NCBI GenBank assembly: GCA_950295325.1
Contig: OX485803.1
Span: forward strand, 1,304,001 to 1,368,000
Origin: Polytrichum commune
Taxonomy: Eukaryota; Streptophyta; Polytrichopsida; Polytrichales; Polytrichaceae
Direction: 5' to 3'
Length of the DNA: 64,000 nucleotides
Part shown: positions 1-58,444 of the stretch, one piece after another
How the letters are laid out: every line of letters begins with the position of its first letter
Numbering within the stretch: the first letter of the stretch is position 1
The notes under the pieces: model-generated
The model's database searches: none
Told to the model about the DNA's origin: nothing
What the model saw: the letters and a program-made list of their open reading frames with translations, nothing else
Made by a program: the position numbers and the translations under genes

Positions 1-751
1 TTACTTCATGTTCAAGTTGATTTAAGTCTATATGTAATCATGAAATGTGCATCATGAGACTTAAGAGGGTCCCAAAATACTACCATCTTACCTAGGTGGT
101 TTTGATTCTAAGAGTTTAATATTTCACTTATTTCTAGAAATAGAGGTTGACAAACTCAAATTGGAAATTTTTGAAAGTTCCAAGGTTAAAGAAGCTATTA
201 TCTTAAAATATTCATTTTGTATGTTTGATATTTTTAATGAAATACTATAATCTGCATCGAAGCCGACTAGGTAGCATGATAATGCTTGTTTTCATAGACG
301 ACCCCCTTGAATGGGCACGGACAAGTTGGTTGCACCTATCTCACCCAAATAAGTTTGTATGTAGGTTCCCACATAGTTGGTTGAAGATATTAATAATCCT
401 TATTATGATTAGGTGCATTGTAATGGTAGGGTGCACGAGAAATAAAATGCTAAAAGGTCACCCATCCATGTATTATTTTGGCCTTAGTCAACTTACCCTC
501 AGAGTCCCAATGGGATTAGGGTTAAGGCCTCGGGTACATGCCACCTTAAGATGATGTGAAGTATTTAAGAGTTAAGAATGAATAAAGTCTTCTACAAAAA
601 GTTTTTTTTGTCAATTGTAAGCATTCAATGGCTTAGCATGTATTTTGATGCAACGTTGAACCTCTAAATCCCTTAAGAAATTGCACTATGTACTTGTCAC
701 CAATATTATGAAATTTGAATTACGTTGAATTTCTCGTATGTTGGTGCATAG
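1..751. other. Intron or upstream part of the metallophosphoesterase gene, no exon recognised
   Basis: The next coding exon starts at 752 after a TAG acceptor and needs two bases from an upstream exon, so this stretch should be intronic. I looked for the expected preceding conserved segment of the family and saw none. The 109-codon frame at 225-554 resembles no family and looks like chance. AT-rich. Confidence 0.6.
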
Positions 752-3700
752 GACATCTGCCGACCTATTCAAGACCGCCTTTGACCTGTTGGTGTCGGTG
801 ACGTTATTCCTTGGCCGTTTTGACATGCGCACCATGCAAGTAATGTATTGGCACTACTCTTGTGTTAGAAGAAGTAGATAAAGAGAGGGCAATAAACTAA
901 TATTATATAAATCCCACCACGTTTAAACATTGCTAAGTCTTTTATCGATCATGCCTCATAATCTTGAAAATACATGGATTATAGTGTGACATTAGACATA
1001 ATGCGTGAATATCATAGTTATATTGCAGAATCTTGATGAATACTCTATTAACAATAAAATATGGAGTTTGTGATGCAAACTTTACACAACAAAGTGCCTT
1101 ATTGTTTTTCTTGACAAAATGAAACGATATGAAGAATAAAGTGGGGGAAGAGGGAGGGAGAGACTTCATCCTTGGGCATAGACAAATACATTTATGTGCC
1201 GGGTGTTATAACCTTTATGCATGACACAGTTTCTCGTAACATTACCAACTTCATTGATTTAGCCTTCTTTTTAAAGGGAGGAAGGTAGGCCTTAGTCTAC
1301 CTCACTAGCCTGCATTCGTGGCCATGAATCCCACCATTGTCGTCCTGCCTCGCAAATGCACCACCGCGTGCAGGACCTTGGCACTGGCCCAATTCATACA
1401 AAATATATACACAAGACCCTAAACCCCCAAGAATCCCATAAAACAAGCCCATTTACACACCGAACCCGGGTCCAATGTCCATTCAACGTGGCGAAATGAA
1501 AAAAATAGCGATGATGAGTACGTACTATTCATATTGTAACGGAAGCCGTAAAGGGGAATTACACCCATTGAATTCATGGTACACCGCCGTGCAGTTAAGT
1601 ATATCTTGTGCTTTTGCAAGCAATTGATGAGCACCCATTAATGAGCAGGCGGCCATGGCACACTCGCGAAACGGGAGGGAGGGCTCGTTGTACGTCCACT
1701 TGAGCAAGAGGAGCGAGTTGTGGCTCGATTTCATGGCCGACACGGGGGACGGCGGCAACTCCACGTATAGTATCGCCCGCCTGCTCGCGCAGCCCTCGCT
1801 TTGTGTGGTGGACGAGCATTGCCGTACGTATCATGAATTGCCCCGTAGAAACCTCCTCCTCGTGGGTGGCGACCTTGCGTTAGTTAGTCACCCTAACCCC
1901 TTCATGATTCGGCACCGTTTTGTTTGCTTGCTTGCATTCGCTCCGTCCGTCTTCATTGTTTCATAAATGCATCGTCGTCCGCGACTTGTCTTGAATGAAT
2001 CATGGTTGCCTCTTTGCAAGGCACAACACCTGTGGAATTGTTTTGTTCCATCGTCGTTAGAAGAAGGAAAAACGTTTTCCATTCCAACCATCGGCTGCAG
2101 TTAGTCCGTTGCAACTCATGACGAGATGATGCATCGAAAAACTGACAATCAATAGCCTTTGCTTGACAACCAACATGATTTGTTAATGCATTTTCTCGCT
2201 GTGGATTGCAATGGGTAAGTTGCAAGGCATGATTGGAGTGGGGCACGTTCTCTTCTAGTGCACTAGATATTGGCGATGTCGTATGTATCAAGTATTGACC
2301 TTTGACTTGTTAAGCCTATGTTTGTAATGTTTGACCATTTATTTCATACAATTCAAGCGGCACAACTACATTGGCCACAACTTTTAAATGGCCACAAAAA
2401 TCGTCCAAATTTGGAAAGCGAAGACATGTTCAATTGATTCACACCAAAAAAAATCGACTTTAGTAGTGCATATGGTCATGGCACTAACATCCTAATGTGA
2501 TCCTAGTAGGGGTAGAGTAACCATGGATGGGCCACAAATCTATAGAAAGTATCCCATAAACTCCCTTATCCAAGGAATGACATTGTGTGGTCAGTGGGAA
2601 GTTTACATGAAATTAGTGCGAGTTTGCAAGCATGTCATGGGTGTCCTATGAACAAGTCAACGTTACAATTGTCTTGACAATTTGTGCGGCCAAGGCAAGC
2701 CTCGTTAGGTGACTTTCTATGGAAAAGAGTAAGAAATCATACTTTCGTCAGTCATTGTGTACTAAAATCACAACACACATATAACATGAGTAGGTACAAG
2801 GGTTGTGTGCCTATGATGCTCATCTATTGGAAACTACTAGAATTCACAAGGCGGGTTTTGTTCATTGGATTGATGCACCACCTTGTTCATATGCAGGTAC
2901 CCCAACCCTTCGATATATTCTTACGAAAGGCGTTTATTTAGGCCCTTTGAGTATGCTTTACAACCCCCTCGGTGGTATAAACAAGAGCACATAGCTATCC
3001 AAAAACCCGAGTTACCCGAAGGAGTCGAATCCCTGGAGAAGCTCGAGGGACCGCAGTGCTTTGCAATACCCGGGAACCATGGTAACTAAATCTTTAACCC
3101 TAGGGTAGTCTTCTAGTTCGATTGCCGGACATGCTATTCAAACATACGAGCTCACGGTCATGATCAAGGTTGAGCATCTTTCATTCGTGTGAACTCCAAA
3201 AGATGACGTTGTTGTCCTTGTGTGTGTGATTCTATTTGTCGTAGAAATTATTGCAAAATTTATGAGGGCACGTCTCCCGTTTTGTGTTTAATTATGCCAA
3301 GTAGGTTGTGATTATCCCATGAAAGCATGTGTCCAACTTAAATAATGGTTGAAAACGACTTCTCTCTGTCATATGCCATAATTGTTTTGAGTGATGCTCA
3401 TCACGAGGGAACATTCAATAAAAGGAGTGTTAATTATTCGAAGGTGGCTTAAACCCAAGGCTTAAATCCATACCCTAGGGGACCACCGAGGCTGAACCAC
3501 ATCATACCATAATAGTGTTGGGATGGGTGAGCTTCATGTTACTTTTCGCATGGGCATTTATAAACCAAAAGAAATGTAATGTGCAAATTTTCCATGTGAA
3601 TGGAGTCAAACCACAATACCTAGAAGAGGTCCGCTTTGAATTCCTATGGAGCTTTATGCTTTGAAATTAAAACTAGCAGCACAAAGAAAGCTCCAAAAGA

Positions 3701-6700
3701 TGAGAGCATAAAGTTCTTCATTCTTCATTATTTTCCACCTTCATGTTGTTGCTCTCGAACCTCCTCTCTAGAACTCGTGATTGGGTGATTGATGCCAAAA
3801 CCACTTGTCTAGATGTACAAGTTGCTACCAAAACCCATAGCCATGCCCATAATTTCAAACAAAACATGACATGCACATGCCCTTGCAATCTCAAGTGAAA
3901 TGCACCCAATAGTAGTTCAAGCCCAACCTCCACATCTAATTTAAAATCTCATCTTATTCTTATGGAGCGCTTTTAACTATGAGTCAAATTGATGCACATG
4001 ATCAGTTTCACTATCATTGAATTGATATCCGACATGTTGTTTACCCAAAAACTCATAATGATATTTTCATCGATTCATCGATTGTTAGATTTATATATGG
4101 TCTCTCAAAATATTCTCTTAGTGGTAAAAACGATATGCATAATCTTATGACTAGCCGTTAAATTGATTATTGTGGTTGATTGATTGTTACAATCAACATA
4201 GAAATGTTCACATTGCATGATAGATTTGAGTAGGTCCAATGACCAAAAAAAGATGGATGCAGATTGGTTTGATGGTCTTCATACATTCATGAGATATATT
4301 TGCCATAGAAGTTGGCTAGGGGGTTGGATGCTACCACAACAAAAGAGCTACTTTGCGTTGAAATTACCACATGGTTGGTGGATTTTTGGCCTTGACCAAG
4401 CTCTTCACGGTGACATCGATGTCTTCCAATTCAAGTACTTTAGTGACATTGCAAAGCACGAGGTGAATATTGGCTTTCATTATTGTTTTTTTATTAACAA
4501 TTGGATATGGACATCCATTTTGTTCTGAGTTGTGGAAGGATGGTGACTTCTCTAGGTCAATTCAAAGTATAATGTAAGTTAATCAACCCTACCTAAGCAT
4601 ATTCAACCATCAAGTTCTAAAGAAACTTTGTTATTTAAGGGGCCACTTTTACATTGCAAATGTTACGATCCACACTAATATCAGGCACGTATGATGTTAC
4701 TATGATGTTTCCATTAGTTTTGTGGGACTGTGAATTGGAGAAATGATTCTTGAATAGCTCGATGGGATGCTCGAGAGTATACATCACAATTTCAAGGTGT
4801 CTTATGAGAGGATGGTTGTGAGTGTAGACCATATATGGCACTCATTATAAACATATGATTCACGTTGTGAGATTTGAGATTGATTCAACATTTACCAATT
4901 GTATGCTATAACCATAACGACATCGTTGCAATTGGGATGGATTGGGAGTAAAAAGAAAAAAGAAAGAGAATGCCCACAACATTGAGTAATGCTATGGAGG
5001 TCGTTGGGTGAACACACTACAAGCATATGCATCTTGGCAATTGACATGTGTAGCAGTGGGAAAACCCCAGTGAACTTAATATCCTCAACTAACCATGTGG
5101 GGACCCAAAAAGAGTTAGATATAAGTTGGTATGTAGACGCACCTCCAAGGTGTTGATGTTTCAAACGGAAGCAATAGTCTCCAATATCCCTCTAATTCTC
5201 ATGATTACAAATGGAGTAAGACCAACTCGAAGATGAAGTAACACCATGATTCATACTTGTGACAACATCAGAGTCATCTCTATGTGTCTTGAACCCCGTA
5301 TTAACTGTGACGATTGTTGTTTAGGTGGGTGCAAATGAATCTGTTATTGTGATGACCCATGAGCCCAATTGGCTATTGGATTGGTATTGGGGAAGTAGCA
5401 CGGGGCAAAACGTGACCCACCTCATCGAGGAGCACTTGAAAGGCCGATGCCGGCTTCGGTTGGCAGGTGACTTGCACAATTACATGCGCCACTCAAGCAT
5501 TCCCGGGAGCCACTCACTTGTGGAGCATTTGCTTGTAAATGGCCAAGGGGGCGCGTTTCTCCACCCAACCCACATATTTGAGGGCTTCAAGGAGTTTCAT
5601 GGAGGCCGCTATGAAAACCAAGCAACCTACCCTTCCATGCAAGATTCGCGGAGGGTACGCCATCACACATGTACTCCACTTATCCTCCTCAATGTTGCTC
5701 ATGCTTCCTATTCTTATTGAATAAAAGCATTTAAACTCAGGTTTAAATTTGTTGCTTGGTTTGACAAGGATATACTTGAGTTGTATGAAATTATTATTTT
5801 GAGGGATTTCAAAAATATTTTGTTCTTAAGGTATATGGATCGTAAATGGGTACTTTTTTTTACTAGCCCACTTCTGCTAGGTTATGAAATGCATAGTCTA
5901 CACAAGTTGATTAACATATCGAATGATGTCGTAGACAATTTTCTTGTATGTTTTGGAGTTCATGTCACTATGTCATTCATTATCAACGTGAGAAATTTTG
6001 TGCTCATTATAGAGTCATATAAGTCCCCACCTCCAATTACGTTGACTATTGTGTCTATAATGGTTAACATATTTGAAGCACGTAGTTCAATCTTTTTTTT
6101 GTTTATATGTATCTTATAGGATCCACACTTAAGCACACAACACTCAAAAATAGGTATGTGTTTGAGATAAGTGATTGAATGAGGCACACCTACCTCATAT
6201 TTTCTTTATTTCTTTTTGGGCATAGTGTTAGGATGACAACCATTGATGTTTTGTTTAGCCATACATTTCTACATTCCCAAAAAGACCGTATGGGACATAA
6301 ATTGTTCTTTGTTCACATAAATACATCATGGGCGTCCAAATTTGGCTTCACTTGTACTCATCACTACGAAGAGTTGCAATTGATAGTTGTATTGGATAAT
6401 ATTTGTATTGTGATTAGAAAATCACATGATGAGAGAAGCATATCAATTTGGACTCTTTGTAGCTCATACTACTCATTATTTTTATGTCCATTTATATTTA
6501 AGAAAATTTGAAACCAAACTTGGAATGCGAGTGCCCATGATATCAGAATTTTAGAGAACATATTCCATCAAAGTATTTCTATAGTGAGTGTGAGTGATCT
6601 ATGCACAAAGCCCTCGTCATAATGGGACATCAAATGGATCAAAGGTATAATTGTGACCACTTTCATTAAGGATGCAATGTTTGTGCAATGTTCATTTCGT

Positions 6701-13213: not shown

Positions 13214-13772
13214 GGGCCACTTCACACACAAGACTGAAGGCCTGTGACCATTGCAATCCAAGAGCTCTCATTGGTCGAAAGGGTGGAGACCGTCCAAGTT
13301 CACTTCACACACAAAGGTGAAGGCCCAAAGGCCTACAAGAAGACTTCATGGATGAAAAGCCTATAATGGAGTCCTACATGGCGGACTATGGATAAGGTTT
13401 CATGGTCTCCTGGAATTTTCATTAGGCCCACCTCCAAGAGGTGGGCCTGACACAAATTCCGGGAGACCATGACTTTTTAAAATAATTTTTCTAGCATGAC
13501 AAATTCCAGGACAGACAAACACCACCAAGTAATTTTCTTAGATTGATAGAGTTTGAGACATATTATATTACACCAAATCCTCCCCTCTTTTTCCACCAAC
13601 AAAATATGCAACGATCCCGCAACATGGTCCATTCTCACTTCACACTATGCTTGAGGACCCGTGACTACTTGAAACAACTTTCTCTAACACCCATGGTACG
13701 GCCTTTGGATGAGAGTCAAGAGTCCTCACCATGACAAGGTCAAGGCTTGTGGCTCATGTGCAAAGTCGCCCT
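13214..13772 (+). mobile_element. Harbinger-type MITE, family GGGCCACTTCAC, subfamily A
   Basis: A 559 bp element starts GGGCCACTTCACACACAAG and ends in a decayed inverted copy (AAAGTCGCCC). It is flanked on both sides by TAA (13211-13213 and 13773-13775), the 3 bp target duplication typical of PIF/Harbinger. The centre (about 13400-13485) can fold on itself because the phrase around GGTCTCCTGGAATT recurs inverted. It aligns along its length with 50664-51213. No coding capacity. Confidence 0.85.
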
Positions 13773-23084: not shown

Positions 23085-23580
23085 GGGCCACTTCACACAC
23101 GAGACTGAGACCCCTTCACCATTACACATCAAGCACTCTCATTGGTGGAAAAGGCGGAGCCGGTCCAAGTTCCCTTCACACTATCATTGAGGGGCCAACG
23201 GAGTAGGTGAATGCAAGATGGATGTAAAGTCTACATGGATTCCTACGTGGCATCAAATGGATCATGTTTCATGGTCACTTGGGATTATTTTCGAAAATCA
23301 CCTCTTGGAGTAGGCTTAACACAAGACCGGGAGACGATGGCACTATGAACGCTCACAATCATTGATTTATTCTAATTTATCATGTGAGGACCCACATAAA
23401 TAGAGATTCGCTGAAATAGCATTTGATTAAGCCCCGGTCACATATGATTTCACACTACACTTGAAAGTCCATGACCACACTACATGAGTTTGGAGGTGTG
23501 TCGGGACGGCCTTTGGACACTTTCTTTTGGGCTCTCACAATTTCATGGTCACGGCTCTTGGCTCGTGCGTGAAGTGGCCC
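23085..23580 (+). mobile_element. Harbinger-type MITE, family GGGCCACTTCAC, subfamily B
   Basis: A 496 bp element has ends GGGCCACTTCACACACGAGA and GTGCGTGAAGTGGCCC and perfect TTA flanks (23082-23084, 23581-23583). The interior resembles 57971-58444 more than 13214-13772, which defines a second subfamily. Non-coding. Confidence 0.87.
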
Positions 23581-45488: not shown

Positions 45489-46436
45489 TGTGTGCTCTCC
45501 TTGATTTAAATGGGTTCATAAATCAAAGTCCACTATAAGATTCTCTTTCCCTCTCTTTCTTGATCCCCGCTTAGACACTATTCCATCTAACATTGGGAAC
45601 CCACAATGACAAAGCTTCAAGTTAAGAGTGGACGTATGCTACACCGAAATTGGACTAAGTTAGTAAATGCTTAAAACATTGACCTCGTTCTATGTTCAAA
45701 AGTCAACACACTTGAGAGGGTCTTTGTGATGGTTTCAAAAGAAACAAAATCTTCAATTAGATCGTTCTTATTATTTTGGCATCTCAACTTTGATACTGAA
45801 TCTTCAAATGATACTCTTCATGAATTGTAATTGTTGTCATTCCAAAGGACACCATTCTTGATGCAATATGATTTAACGGCCAAAATGGTAAGTTGTGCGG
45901 ATGTTAGTCAAATACTTTTTATTTTAAATCCCACATTTATCTTGTACTCAGTATTTGATTGGTGTTTGAAAAATCGAAGATCAAATTACAAAAATCACAA
46001 CTTTAAAACAAATTTCAGGACATCTTTAAAATTGATTTATTACTCTACAAACAATAATGAACTTACACGATCGAGAGGACCTTTGTATTTATTTGAGAGA
46101 TCAACAAACCTACACTTATGAAAACCGTAAGTAAATAAAGGGGAATGTAATATTCAATAAAAAAAATGTTGATTTTGTGTGAATCTAATTTGTAGAAGTG
46201 GAGAACATGAAATACGAATCAAATGACACCCAAATACCTTATGTGGAGATGGAAGTGCCAAATTCTACTTCCCATTGCATGAGACCACTTTAAAAAAAAA
46301 AATCTTTATAGAGCATAAAAGGCCCTTGACCACCAAGCTAGTTTTTTGGCAAGTAGAGAGAAGATTTTATGGCCGGAAATTAAACCACCAACCTCTTCAT
46401 TCAGTTTTGGGTACCTCTCCACTATCATTTAGCAAT
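45489..46436. other. Intergenic with dispersed repeat at about 46150-46250
   Basis: GAAGTGGAGAACATGAAATAC matches the 25640 family. The frame at 45831-46121 is unrecognised. No gene supported. Confidence 0.45.
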
Positions 46437-46699
46437 TTAGGGCCACTTCATACTTGAGCCAAGGGCACTAACCATGTAATGGTGAGGGCCCTTGACTCTC
46501 ATCCAAAAGCTGTATCACGTGTGTTGGAATAGCCATTTTGTATAGTCATGGGCCCTCAACCATAGTATGAAGTGAGAATGGTTCATGTTGAGGGAGCATT
46601 GCATATTTTATTGGTGGAAAAAGAGGGCAACCCTACCTCACTCGTTACATATCTTCATTCTTTTTGTTTTTCACTTTCATTTTCATTTTTACATTGTTG

Positions 46700-47795
46700 A
46701 GGAAAGAAAGAAGAGCATGAGGAATCATCTTCAGAGAAAAAGGAGGATTCTTGTTGTATTGGCTTTATATTGGTGTTTGCACATGGTTGTGCAACATGTG
46801 TTTGATATGCAAGCATTGATACTCAATGAAGAATGCCTTGATTTTTAGCATTTGCTTTGAGAGTATAAACATGAGCAATCGTAGTGGGCATTTAAGAGAA
46901 ATTTAAGGTTCATAGATAGATTACTACTGCATTCTTTCACCAAAAAAAGTTCAAGCAAAGAACTTGGGTATCTATTAATACACTCAAGTTACTTAATGAG
47001 AGGTTAGGTCAATATTTGCATAAGAAGAATATACATATGAAGAGGCAATTTCAATTGAGGCTAGAGTCGTAATGTATTACAAAGGTTTGAGCCTCGAAAT
47101 ACCTTGTGTACCATAGGAGAGGTATACAGGGTAGCCAAAAGTACACTTTTAAAAATTGTGAGAATTTTTATAGATTGATAGGATTTTTGTTTCCAACAAA
47201 CTTTTGTGCAAATCTTTCTCAGTTTAAGATTTAAGCACAAGATTTTGAGGCATTTCACGAGATTCCTCATATTTTTAAATCAATTGATGTATCTTAGATT
47301 CCAATTATTGCACTTAAAATTTGAAAAGAAAAATCTCATTTGTCACGAATCATTTTACCCAACTTTACTACAAGGTATTAATGATACAAAATTTGTGTTT
47401 TGGAATTATAAATTAGGATGAGCATGAAGTATGCACGACCGAACATTATTTCAACTAACAAAAATTGGAAAAGATTACATAAAAGGTAAATTCTACCTTA
47501 CAATCTAATTATATAATTATATAAATATATTTATATATATTTAGTTCAACCACGAACTTATAGTCCATTCAAAGGTATTTCATAGGATTTAGAAGGTTAT
47601 AACACTAATTGGAATTTTATTTAAAGTTTTAGTCGCATGTACATAAAACGTGCTTTCGTAATTCTGAAAGGAAGACGGAGAATTATTATGAAAAGGGTTG
47701 ATGTACCTTTACAACATATGCCTAATACAATTGCTTCATATATTATGCTACATATAATATATACAATTAGTAAGAACATATTTGATAGGGAATAG
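46700..47795 (+). pseudogene. PIF/Harbinger transposase pseudogene (DDE_Tnp_4 type)
   Basis: Several frames together keep the order of a plant Harbinger transposase. About 46720-46845 gives an N-terminal RKRRILVVLALYWCLHMVV. About 46945-47065 gives LLNERLGQYLHKKNIHMKRQ. About 47090-47180 gives a helix-turn-helix, CTIGEVYRVAKSTLLKIV. About 47245-47420 gives the first DDE block, FHEIPHIFKSIDVS, then LLQGINDTKFVFWNYKLG and SMHDRTLFQL. About 47634-47795 gives the C-terminal AFVILKGRRRIIMKRVDVPL and HMPNTIASYIM. In-frame stops and frame changes break it, and the composition has drifted strongly to A and T. It cannot make an active enzyme. Confidence 0.85.
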
Positions 47796-49138
47796 ATAGA
47801 AGAAATAGAATTATAACTATCTAAAACTAGAGAATATTTTCTAGAGAGAATGACAAGAAATGAGGGCTCAAATTGTAAATATAGGTAAAGAAAAAGGTAT
47901 CATTCACACTTAAAATAATATAAAATTTTACAAAGAAAATGACAAAGAAATTGAAAACTTCTCGATAAAAATACAATGAAAAAATTAAAGATGAATTGCT
48001 GGAGGCTATAGAAATGCATGAAGTAATAGCCAAATCATTCTAACAAATAAGACTTAAAAAATAATCAAACATAGAATCTGGGAATATAGACAATGAATTT
48101 GACATGGCTAAATGTTTACAAATTTGTACTGATGTTGTCATATGAGCATTCATATTCTTCAATAAAATTTGTTATAATATGAAAAGATGTTATTGAACTA
48201 GAAGAATTTTTGACTACCTATTCCAAGAATCCTTTCATCTTGTAATGATTTTCTTCTTCTTTTTGTGTAGTTTTTGAATGTGAATAACCCCATGTGAATA
48301 TTATTGCATGTTTTAACCACCTTTGTGTTGATCATCCTCTTGAGCAATTGTTGGCATTTGATCAATCGCACTTGTACATTTTTTGTTTTACATATCCAAA
48401 TGCTCATAGTACTAACATTCAAGTGTATGATGACATGAAATTTCATTTGAACATTTATCATTTTATATTCAATCATAATTACTTGTTATTTCTTCTTATA
48501 AGCCAAACATGTTCTTCCAAAACTGTGCAAACTTAAAACCATACAAGGATGAAGCTTTGTACAAGCGTTCATTTCTACTCATGTATAAGAACTGCAATTT
48601 AGAATAGGCTAACATTGGATTAAATACAATATCTTCCAAACTCTATCAACTTGAGAGAAATGAGGCAGTGGTCTAATCCGTCATGGTTGCATCTACATTA
48701 TTTTTGATATTTGGTGGCATTTGTGATCCAATCACTCTAACTTTCTATCAAGAAACAACTAAAAATTGCTAAAATTCTTACTTGCTAATAAGTGTTCATA
48801 CAATCTAAATTGTGATTGATTCTATATCATGCAAGGAGAACTTTAGCTCCATTATTGGATTTCATAACCACTATCATCTTGCGAGAATTTGCCATTAAGA
48901 AGAAACAATTATAAAAAAAACAAATGAATCATAAAAATTCTCTACAACAAACACACATATTAGCAAGCTCCCAAAACTTGGAGTTTTGGACAATTGGGAG
49001 AGGCAACGCTTTGTCATGTCATTAACTATCTATCTTGGAAAAGTTACAGTCGGACAAAAATATCTAAATAACCACGACAACCAATGACAGTTATTTCATT
49101 GTTACGACTTATCGGACTTTGTATTCGGCCTACCTGAA
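47796..49138. other. Interior of the Harbinger relic after the transposase
   Basis: AT-rich. A minus-strand frame at 48198-48476 with basic residues could be a remnant of the Myb-like second protein of Harbinger elements, but I see no motif to support that. Confidence 0.35.
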
Positions 49139-49641
49139 AGATGTGGACTTGACGCAAATTCCAGCATACCATAGAACATTATCCATAGTCTGCCATGTAA
49201 AACTCCACGTCAACTTTTCATCCATGAAATTTTCTTTGGGCCTTTAGCCGTTCACCTTCTATTGTGAAGTGAACTTGAACGGTTTCTACCTTTTTGTCCA
49301 ATGAGAGTTTTAAAATCGCAATGGTCACGGGCCTTCAATCTTGAGTGTGAAGTGGCCCTTAGGGTCATCTCGGGCCAAATGACACCTCTAGAACCATGAT
49401 TGCGGTGGATAAGAACCGGAGAAGACCTTATGATTGTCAATGGTCAACGATAAGTTTTTTTCCAATTCATCTTTTTGGAGTAAGTTAAAGGAGGACGCAC
49501 GCATGCTCATTGATGACAAGAATGTTTGTTACCGCCTCATCTTCAACCTTTTGCCGTGACTTGTGGCTCCTTGATGGATTAAAAAACATCCCACATTTAT
49601 GCGTATCTTATTGTCCATCTCATCATCGATTGTGTACATTA

Positions 49642-50663: not shown

Positions 50664-51213
50664 GGGCCGCTTCACACACAAGACTGAAGGCCCGTGACCA
50701 TCGCAATCTAAGAGCTCTCATTGGTCGAAAGGGCGCAGATCGTCCAAGTTCACTTCACACACGAAGGTGAAGGCCTAAAGGCCCAAAGGAGACTTCATGG
50801 ATGAAAAGTCTACATGGAGTCTTACATGGTGGATTATGGATAAGGTTACAGAGGTGGGCTTGACGCAAATTCCAGGAGACCATGACTTTCTTTTTTTTAA
50901 ATCAAAAAATCTAGCATGACAAATTTCAAGACATATTGCAGGGCAAATTCCAAGACGGTCAAACACCACCAAGTAATTCTCTTAAATTGATAGAGTTTGA
51001 GACATATTATATTGAACCAAATTCTCCCCTCTTTTCTGTGAACAAAATATGCAATGATCTCGCAACATGGTCCATTCTCACTTCACACTATGCTTGAGGG
51101 CCCATGACTACATAAAACGGCTTTCCCAACACCCATGCTACGGCATTTGGATGAGAGTCAAGGGTCCTCACCATTACATGGTCACGGCTCTTGGCTCATG
51201 TGTGAAGTGGCCC
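50664..51213 (+). mobile_element. Harbinger-type MITE, family GGGCCACTTCAC, subfamily A (reference copy)
   Basis: A 550 bp element has ends GGGCCGCTTCACACACAAGA and CATGTGTGAAGTGGCCC. Flanks are TTA on the left and TTC on the right, one substitution from a perfect 3 bp duplication. It aligns along its length with 13214-13772. Non-coding. Confidence 0.85.
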
Positions 51214-57970: not shown

Positions 57971-58444
57971 GGGCCACTTCACACACAAGCTGAGGGTCCG
58001 TGACCAATTCACTTCAAGCACTCTCATTGGTGGAAAAGGTCGGAGCTGGTCCATGTTCACTTCACACTATGATTAAGGGACCAACAAAGTAAGTGAATGC
58101 AAGATGGATGTGAAGTCTACATGGATTCCTACATGGCATCAAATGGATCGTGTTTCAAGATCACTTGGATTATTTTCAAAAACCACCTCTTGGAGATAGG
58201 TCTAACACAAGACTGAGAGACCCTTTCACTCCGAAATCTCACAATTGTTGATTTATTATATTTTATCATATGTGAGGACCCTGCATGAATAGAAATTTAT
58301 CGAAATATTAGTTGGTTGAGGGCCCGGTCACATATGGAGGGCCCGTGACCACCCTGCATGATTTCGGCAGTGATTTGGGACGGCCTTTGGACACTTCTTT
58401 TGGGCTCTCGTAGTTTCTTGGTCACGGCGCTTGGCTTGTGGCCC
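57971..58444 (+). mobile_element. Harbinger-type MITE, family GGGCCACTTCAC, subfamily B
   Basis: A 474 bp element has an intact left end GGGCCACTTCACACACAAGC and a right end shortened to GGCTTGTGGCCC. Flanks are TAA on both sides (57968-57970, 58445-58447). It is closest to 23085-23580. It sits about 0.5 kb before the inferred leader of the U-box gene. Confidence 0.83.

Follow-up and report, generated by a model that had tools for sequence, protein, structure and literature searches.

The closest described counterparts of the element family reported here are transposons with two genes and the miniature inverted-repeat elements (MITEs) related to them. As described in the available part of one source (PMC4482050), NuwaII elements of the PHIS superfamily have the target C|TNA|G, two genes, tips beginning with GG and 13-46 bp long, and an average length of ~4.7 kb, and the duplication of PIF/Harbinger elements is given as TWA. 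PIF/Harbinger elements and Tourist-like MITEs, in the parts of two further sources at hand (PMC2213677, PMC2836001), are associated with a DDE transposase, a Myb-like second gene and a 3-bp duplication that is mostly TTA or TAA, and the MITEs arise via internal deletion. In rice, mPing is an internal deletion derivative of the two-gene element Ping, its known active parent (PMC2836001 and PMC6850418, in part), and for mJing a full-length relative with diverged ends, Jing, is described and a borrowed transposase proposed (PMC6850418, in part). The Myb-like protein and the transposase are described as acting jointly on the ends, so that short copies with these ends can be moved in trans (PMC2836001, in part). 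A literature search that included moss MITEs found no paper on the family treated below, which is not a claim that it is absent from print.

In this study, a stretch of 64,000 nucleotides of Polytrichum commune (contig OX485803.1, positions 1,304,001 to 1,368,000; the window) was analysed, and the genome (408 Mb, 64 contigs) was searched. A preliminary description had placed an inserted element with TTA on both sides at 46440-49358, and these coordinates proved exact. The element, called W below, is 2919 bp long, with the left tip GGGCCACTTCAT (46440-46451) and the right tip GGGCCACTTCAC (49347-49358, minus strand). Its inverted repeat measures ~15-16 nt and is 94% complementary, the 16-nt form taking in one base of the duplication. 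With at most one mismatch, 8 occurrences of the tip were counted in the window where 0.22 would be expected, and none of 100 shuffles reached 8. When the flanks of W were joined, all 39 other matches listed (best 40 of 1728 candidates) crossed the junction by 8-37 bases. The eight paralogous empty sites fetched all read ...TTTA|GGGTCATCTC with one TTA, indicating that W is a real insertion with a 3-bp duplication. Its own site reads T|TTA|G and lies within another repeat (46303-46439 plus 49362-49377), ~16 bp from the apparent end of that repeat. The features of W and of the window MITEs are collected in Table 1; the subterminal palindrome is better preserved in relatives and is absent from the palindrome listing of W itself.

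Table 1. Positions in the window of W, its parts and the related MITE copies
Feature	Position	Strand	Evidence
MITE B copy	23085-23580	-	TTA both sides; 92.9% to B consensus, 62.2% to A
MITE B copy, one shortened tip	57971-58444	-	TAA both sides; 88.6% to B, 59.8% to A
MITE A copy	13214-13771	-	TAA both sides; 5.9% from consensus
MITE A copy	50664-51213	-	7.1% from consensus; flanks TTA and TTC
Left target-site duplication TTA	46437-46439		single TTA in 8/8 empty sites fetched
Left end common to MITE A (element 1-188)	46440-46627	+	85.6% to MITE A consensus
Remains of a DDE_Tnp_4 transposase gene, broken by stops and frameshifts	46717-48106	+	tblastn pieces, E 8e-52 and 1e-45
Decayed Myb/SANT gene	48124-48887	-	tblastn E 1.6e-18 and 1.2e-10
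Intron piece kept inside MITE A (element 2175-2220)	48614-48659	+	80% over 46 bp
Gap where W lacks DNA present in siblings, including the SANT exon	48679-48684		sibling spacing
Decayed subterminal palindrome (element 2671-2733)	49110-49172		matches relatives in both orientations
Right end common to MITE A (element 2717-2919)	49156-49358	+	83.7% over 203 bp
Right target-site duplication TTA	49359-49361		single TTA in 8/8 empty sites fetched

W carries the remains of two genes, and the longest stop-to-stop frame listed in or around it was 95 aa. The decayed DDE transposase named in the preliminary description was borne out by tblastn and by a relative: the 518-aa transposase frame of a young copy matched Pfam DDE_Tnp_4 (2.3e-22, 79.8 bits against a cut-off of 24.8), and a Plant_tran match was also obtained in the profile search. 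Two short open pieces of W gave no match in Pfam, and NCBIfam gave nothing useful. In the alignment of the W transposase, two of the residues that we take to form the catalytic triad, the second D and the E, are not preserved. The Myb/SANT gene on the minus strand had been missed. It aligns with the relative's protein at residues 4-74 and 159-299, with 75-158 missing. Two Myb exons of a young copy, when joined at a guessed splice, matched Myb_DNA-bind_4 (1.1e-10); one exon alone gave 1.4e-4, below the cut-off, and the other alone no match. At the gap in W, decayed siblings (see below) were longer by ~340-460 bp in 16 of the 17 aligned on both sides and by ~165 bp in L081. In the sibling consensus, this stretch codes for residues 66-155 (E 4.5e-31), and the exon was matched in 16 of 18 siblings; W therefore lacks the SANT exon. 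In the locus L015 (~2323-2650), a unit of ~77 bp is repeated several times between the two Myb exons, in a number that seems variable between copies.

The full-length search with W as the query scored the best 40 of 2777 candidates. Nine of the relatives fetched form a young group, 97% identical to each other and 1.2-1.8% from their own consensus, and the others belong to older groups. Sixteen full-length copies compared were 72-74% identical to W and 2.75-4.1 kb long. A transposase frame of 518-560 aa is still open in three copies, openness here referring to the transposase gene only and not to the gene pair; a far younger subfamily retains open transposase frames. The preliminary description had named an interior occurring elsewhere with different terminal repeats and duplication as evidence against its reading. 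Close relatives of the W interior bear the same tips as W, and differences are confined to distant relatives: the element in L054 (~391-3769 on the minus strand; transposase with an open frame and 47% identity) has the tips GGGCCGGTTCAC, and L052, L053, L059 and L060 (59-64% transposase identity) showed no W-type tip within the stretch fetched.

Identical duplications were present in 46 of the 61 elements counted (15 had unequal flanks), and all 46 were TNA, namely 22 TAA, 20 TTA, 3 TGA and 1 TCA. C stood before 29 of them and G after 32, and both (CTNAG) occurred in 19, versus 3.1% of the TNA sites in the window. By group, CTNAG was found in 5/17 of the other full-length elements (F), 7/16 of MITE A, 6/10 of MITE B and 1/3 of the W lineage, a lineage that three sites are too few to judge by itself. 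This count leaves out L020, L024-L026, L046, L048, L051-L062, L073, L079-L082, L084, L086, L088, L090-L096 and the window copy 57971-58444. An exact 28-nt tip, that of MITE B and the young copies rather than of the MITE A consensus, occurred 1337 times in the genome, 1131 times after TNA, and 628 of those after CTNA; among 100 such tips listed, 45 followed TAA, 45 TTA, 7 TGA and 3 TCA, as counted by eye.

The PHIS features, a DDE_Tnp_4-type transposase and a second gene with a Myb/SANT domain, are both present, and tips of the W family start with GGGCCACTTCACACA... (~15-16 nt in W). The family fits NuwaII by these described features (TNA duplication in C|TNA|G, the two genes, GG tips), rather than by placement in a transposase clade; the sixteen full-length copies are shorter than the NuwaII average (PMC4482050, in part). 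In comparison with PIF/Harbinger elements and Tourist-like MITEs, the DDE transposase, the Myb-like second gene, the MITEs via internal deletion and the mostly TTA or TAA duplication are alike, whereas TGA or TCA on both sides in 4/46 (TWA in the other 42) and the preference for flanking C and G are different, and the G(N)5GTT motif of Medicago elements is missing from the tips (PMC2213677, PMC2836001, in part). The 3-bp duplication and the DDE transposase noted for W at the outset are supported; the Harbinger label is loose, the target being that given for NuwaII (PMC4482050, in part). As the case shows, a C|TNA|G target can go unnoticed behind a TTA duplication, so elements of this sort that were labelled Harbinger automatically should be looked at again.

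The ends of W had been described as the two halves of the local MITE. This holds for two of the four other window MITEs, which form family A, and fails for the other two, which form family B. In a sample of 21 MITE A copies (two in the window and nineteen from among the best matches), the consensus was 549 bp long and the copies were 5-10% from it. From left to right it consists of left end 1-189, ~49 bp of sequence from the Myb-gene intron, a repeat with a 12-bp unit, and the right end. The outer 188 and 203 bp of W correspond to the two ends. The intron piece scored 47 in W, with a maximum of 26 in 60 shuffles; against the sibling consensus it was 42/49 identical and scored 63 (maximum 28 in 200 shuffles), and BLAST detected it at 13 of the 18 sibling loci. 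The piece thus has its best fit in W and the siblings, which are just as decayed. That siblings share it is in part an effect of selection, because the stretch used to find them contained it. In L055, although it belongs to the W clade by its interior (see below), the piece was at the shuffle level (22; 19/60 shuffles as high).

The junctions expected from internal deletion had been named as a check, and they were found for MITE A, with its GGGCCACTTCAC ends. Junction 1 was present in 21/21 copies (L037 and L038 are identical) and at 757 places in the genome with at most 3 mismatches, and a reversed control gave 0; one founder is the simplest reading. Just ahead of the right palindrome, MITE A has ~45 bp that are similar to the W lineage at an equal offset, but only 2 of 8 elements exceeded all shuffles, and the consensus (39; 2/300 shuffles higher) did not. 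Ends shared with a coding element, a fixed junction and a high copy number are the marks of MITEs formed by internal deletion (Tourist type), and together they support MITE A as a two-deletion derivative of the element type of W.

Siblings of W were sought with the stretch 48460-48680 of W alone, because equally decayed copies would rank under well-kept ones; 40/40 candidates were scored and 18 of the 43 other matches fetched. The longest plus-strand frame in these 18 was 171 aa, which means that an open transposase is preserved in none of them. A tree of the interior, built without the ends and the intron stretch, united W, seven siblings and L055 in a star-like clade (100/100) with end branches of 0.19-0.23, and the end branches in the young group were 0.0085-0.021. 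This star with long end branches reads as an old burst. The base composition of W was flagged as deviant in the tree. L055, which had been filed with the other full-length lineage, was moved by the tree into the W clade. Left out were L081, L083, L086 and L089-L096 of the W lineage, as well as L020, L024-L026, L048, L052-L054 and L057-L060.

Trees of the ends bear on whether W is a parent or a cousin of MITE A. In the second ends tree (54 rows, bootstrap not settled), ten W-lineage rows formed their own group (93/96). This tree, of the kind proposed at the outset (MITE ends against full elements), sets MITE A nearer the W lineage (stem 0.025) than the others (0.032 + 0.056), between the two groups, and not inside the W lineage; four MITE A copies sit on the branch leading to the other full-length clade. 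AU tests rejected none of three groupings in the second tree (p 0.20, 0.46, 0.26), and gave 0.20 and 0.13 in the first. The first tree leaves out L017 and the second L017 and L038; both leave out L020, L024-L026, L046, L048, L051-L062, L080, L082 and L090-L096 (loci with an incomplete pair of ends or outside the set then compared) and, among the 16 MITE B copies, 9 or 10, and L079 is represented by its left end only and L081, L086 and L088 by their right ends only.

Twenty-seven end sites separate MITE A from the other full-length elements, a count that leaves out 26 columns without a clear state. At 17 of these sites the sibling consensus has the state of MITE A and at 9 that of the others, and it is undecided at 1; W shares the MITE A state at 16 sites, that of the others at 10 and neither at 1. 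Just 3 columns are peculiar to the W lineage. The ends of the W lineage look near to ancestral, with 9-10 changes of MITE A's own, which makes W a fossil near the parental lineage and not demonstrably the parent copy. W also looks older than MITE A, judged from end branches of 0.11-0.16 in W and mostly 0.02-0.075 in the MITE copies, which were ranked by similarity and are hence biased to well-kept ones.

These data can be set against three other origins. In favour of W itself as the direct template, the pieces of MITE A are still found in W, and among the 19 elements tested no other reached its intron score (next 28). In the first ends tree, built without the siblings, W was also placed beside MITE A copies; once siblings were added, W grouped with them and kept a sister position only. 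Together with an end branch ~2-3 times the usual one of MITE A, and with the 10 of 27 sites (9 in the sibling consensus) that side with other elements, this makes a direct template very improbable. The parentage suggested in the preliminary description is accordingly retained for the element type of W and not supported for the W copy, in view of the sibling star and the sites against it. Somewhat less improbable, but still unlikely, is an origin from the other, surviving full-length lineage (the young group and its relatives). MITE A is 87-88% identical on the left and 89-91% on the right to the nine young copies, above the decayed W, the grouping of MITE A with F has an AU p of 0.46, and weak intron matches occur at the corresponding place in L014, L017 and L050 (27, 28, 27). 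Against it, the intron piece in L008, the one young copy tested, scored at the shuffle level (21; 17/60 shuffles as high), and the ends of the 18 other full-length elements formed a clade (100/99, stem 0.056) without any of the 20 MITE A rows.

It is least credible of all that MITE A gained its ends by convergence or capture rather than by deletion. The stretch 245-323 of MITE A (~75 bp) had no clear source among the 19 elements first tested, which would suit such an origin, but the aligned copies explain it as the 12-bp repeat, whose number varies between copies, and ~390 bp of ends plus the intron piece are in the right order and orientation. We therefore favour, with a probability of roughly 0.84, the reading that W is an old, dead two-gene PHIS copy and that a close relative of the W lineage, twice internally deleted, founded MITE A.

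Under this favoured reading, a transposon encoding a transposase and a Myb/SANT protein inserted into another repeat, duplicated TTA and decayed to become W. Its lineage amplified in an old burst, of which only decayed copies are present among those examined. A close relative would have lost two large internal stretches, the founder keeping the right end along with ~189 bp of the left end and ~50 bp of intron from the Myb gene, with expansion of the 12-bp repeat within it, and this single founder would have multiplied to at least several hundred copies. Of these steps, the data show the insertion, the common ends, the retained intron piece, one junction common to the copies and the star-like clade of siblings. 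Because the end branch of W is longer than those of MITE A, we infer that the spread came after the W lineage had mostly died, and that proteins of a related lineage moved MITE A in trans.

The case resembles Ping/mPing, where the MITE likewise comes from a two-gene element by internal deletion; the parent Ping is known to be active, whereas for MITE A the nearest parental lineage found is dead and two large deletions have to be assumed (PMC2836001, PMC6850418, in part). As with Jing/mJing, a full-length relative has diverged ends and a borrowed transposase is proposed, the difference being that fossil relatives of the parent lineage were also found here (PMC6850418, in part). W is a clear example of a known process, not a new kind of element. 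With fossil relatives at hand, the founding deletions of a MITE can be read off instead of being deduced only from its ends, and hundreds of small elements are tied to one founding event. With a little less than even odds, we suggest that one genome holds a datable series: an old full-length burst now dead, then a MITE from near that lineage with one founder and two deletions, another MITE family derived from a sister lineage, and a recent burst of elements with open transposase frames, the first MITE having spread after the death of its parental lineage via a related lineage with ends ~87-91% alike, and C|TNA|G being common to both MITE families and the full-length elements.

W had also been put forward as the parent of all local MITEs, but the copies at 23085-23580 and 57971-58444 fall outside. 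These belong to MITE B, which had a parent other than the element type of W. The leftmost 51 bp of its consensus are 92-96% identical to the young copies and its right ~270 bp only about 66-75% like full-length elements; its middle had no match among the full-length elements tested, and its parent was not found among those compared.

Several minor observations were made on the loci scanned. The left end of L017 is interrupted (~282-776) by an insert of ~495 bp with inverted tips CCCAGGGAGTGCACTATTCA and what seems to be an 8-bp duplication, TACCATGG; we take this insert to be hAT-like. In five loci, neighbouring elements of the family abut with a single TTA or TAA (L017 ~197-200, L026 ~3475-3478, L042 ~612-615, L046 ~628-631 and L085 ~314-317), as if the duplication of one were the target of the next. 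At G000 C1, left tips at 5137951, 5138173, 5138395 and 5138623 are spaced by 222, 222 and 228 bp and thus resemble a short tandem array built from the end of this element.
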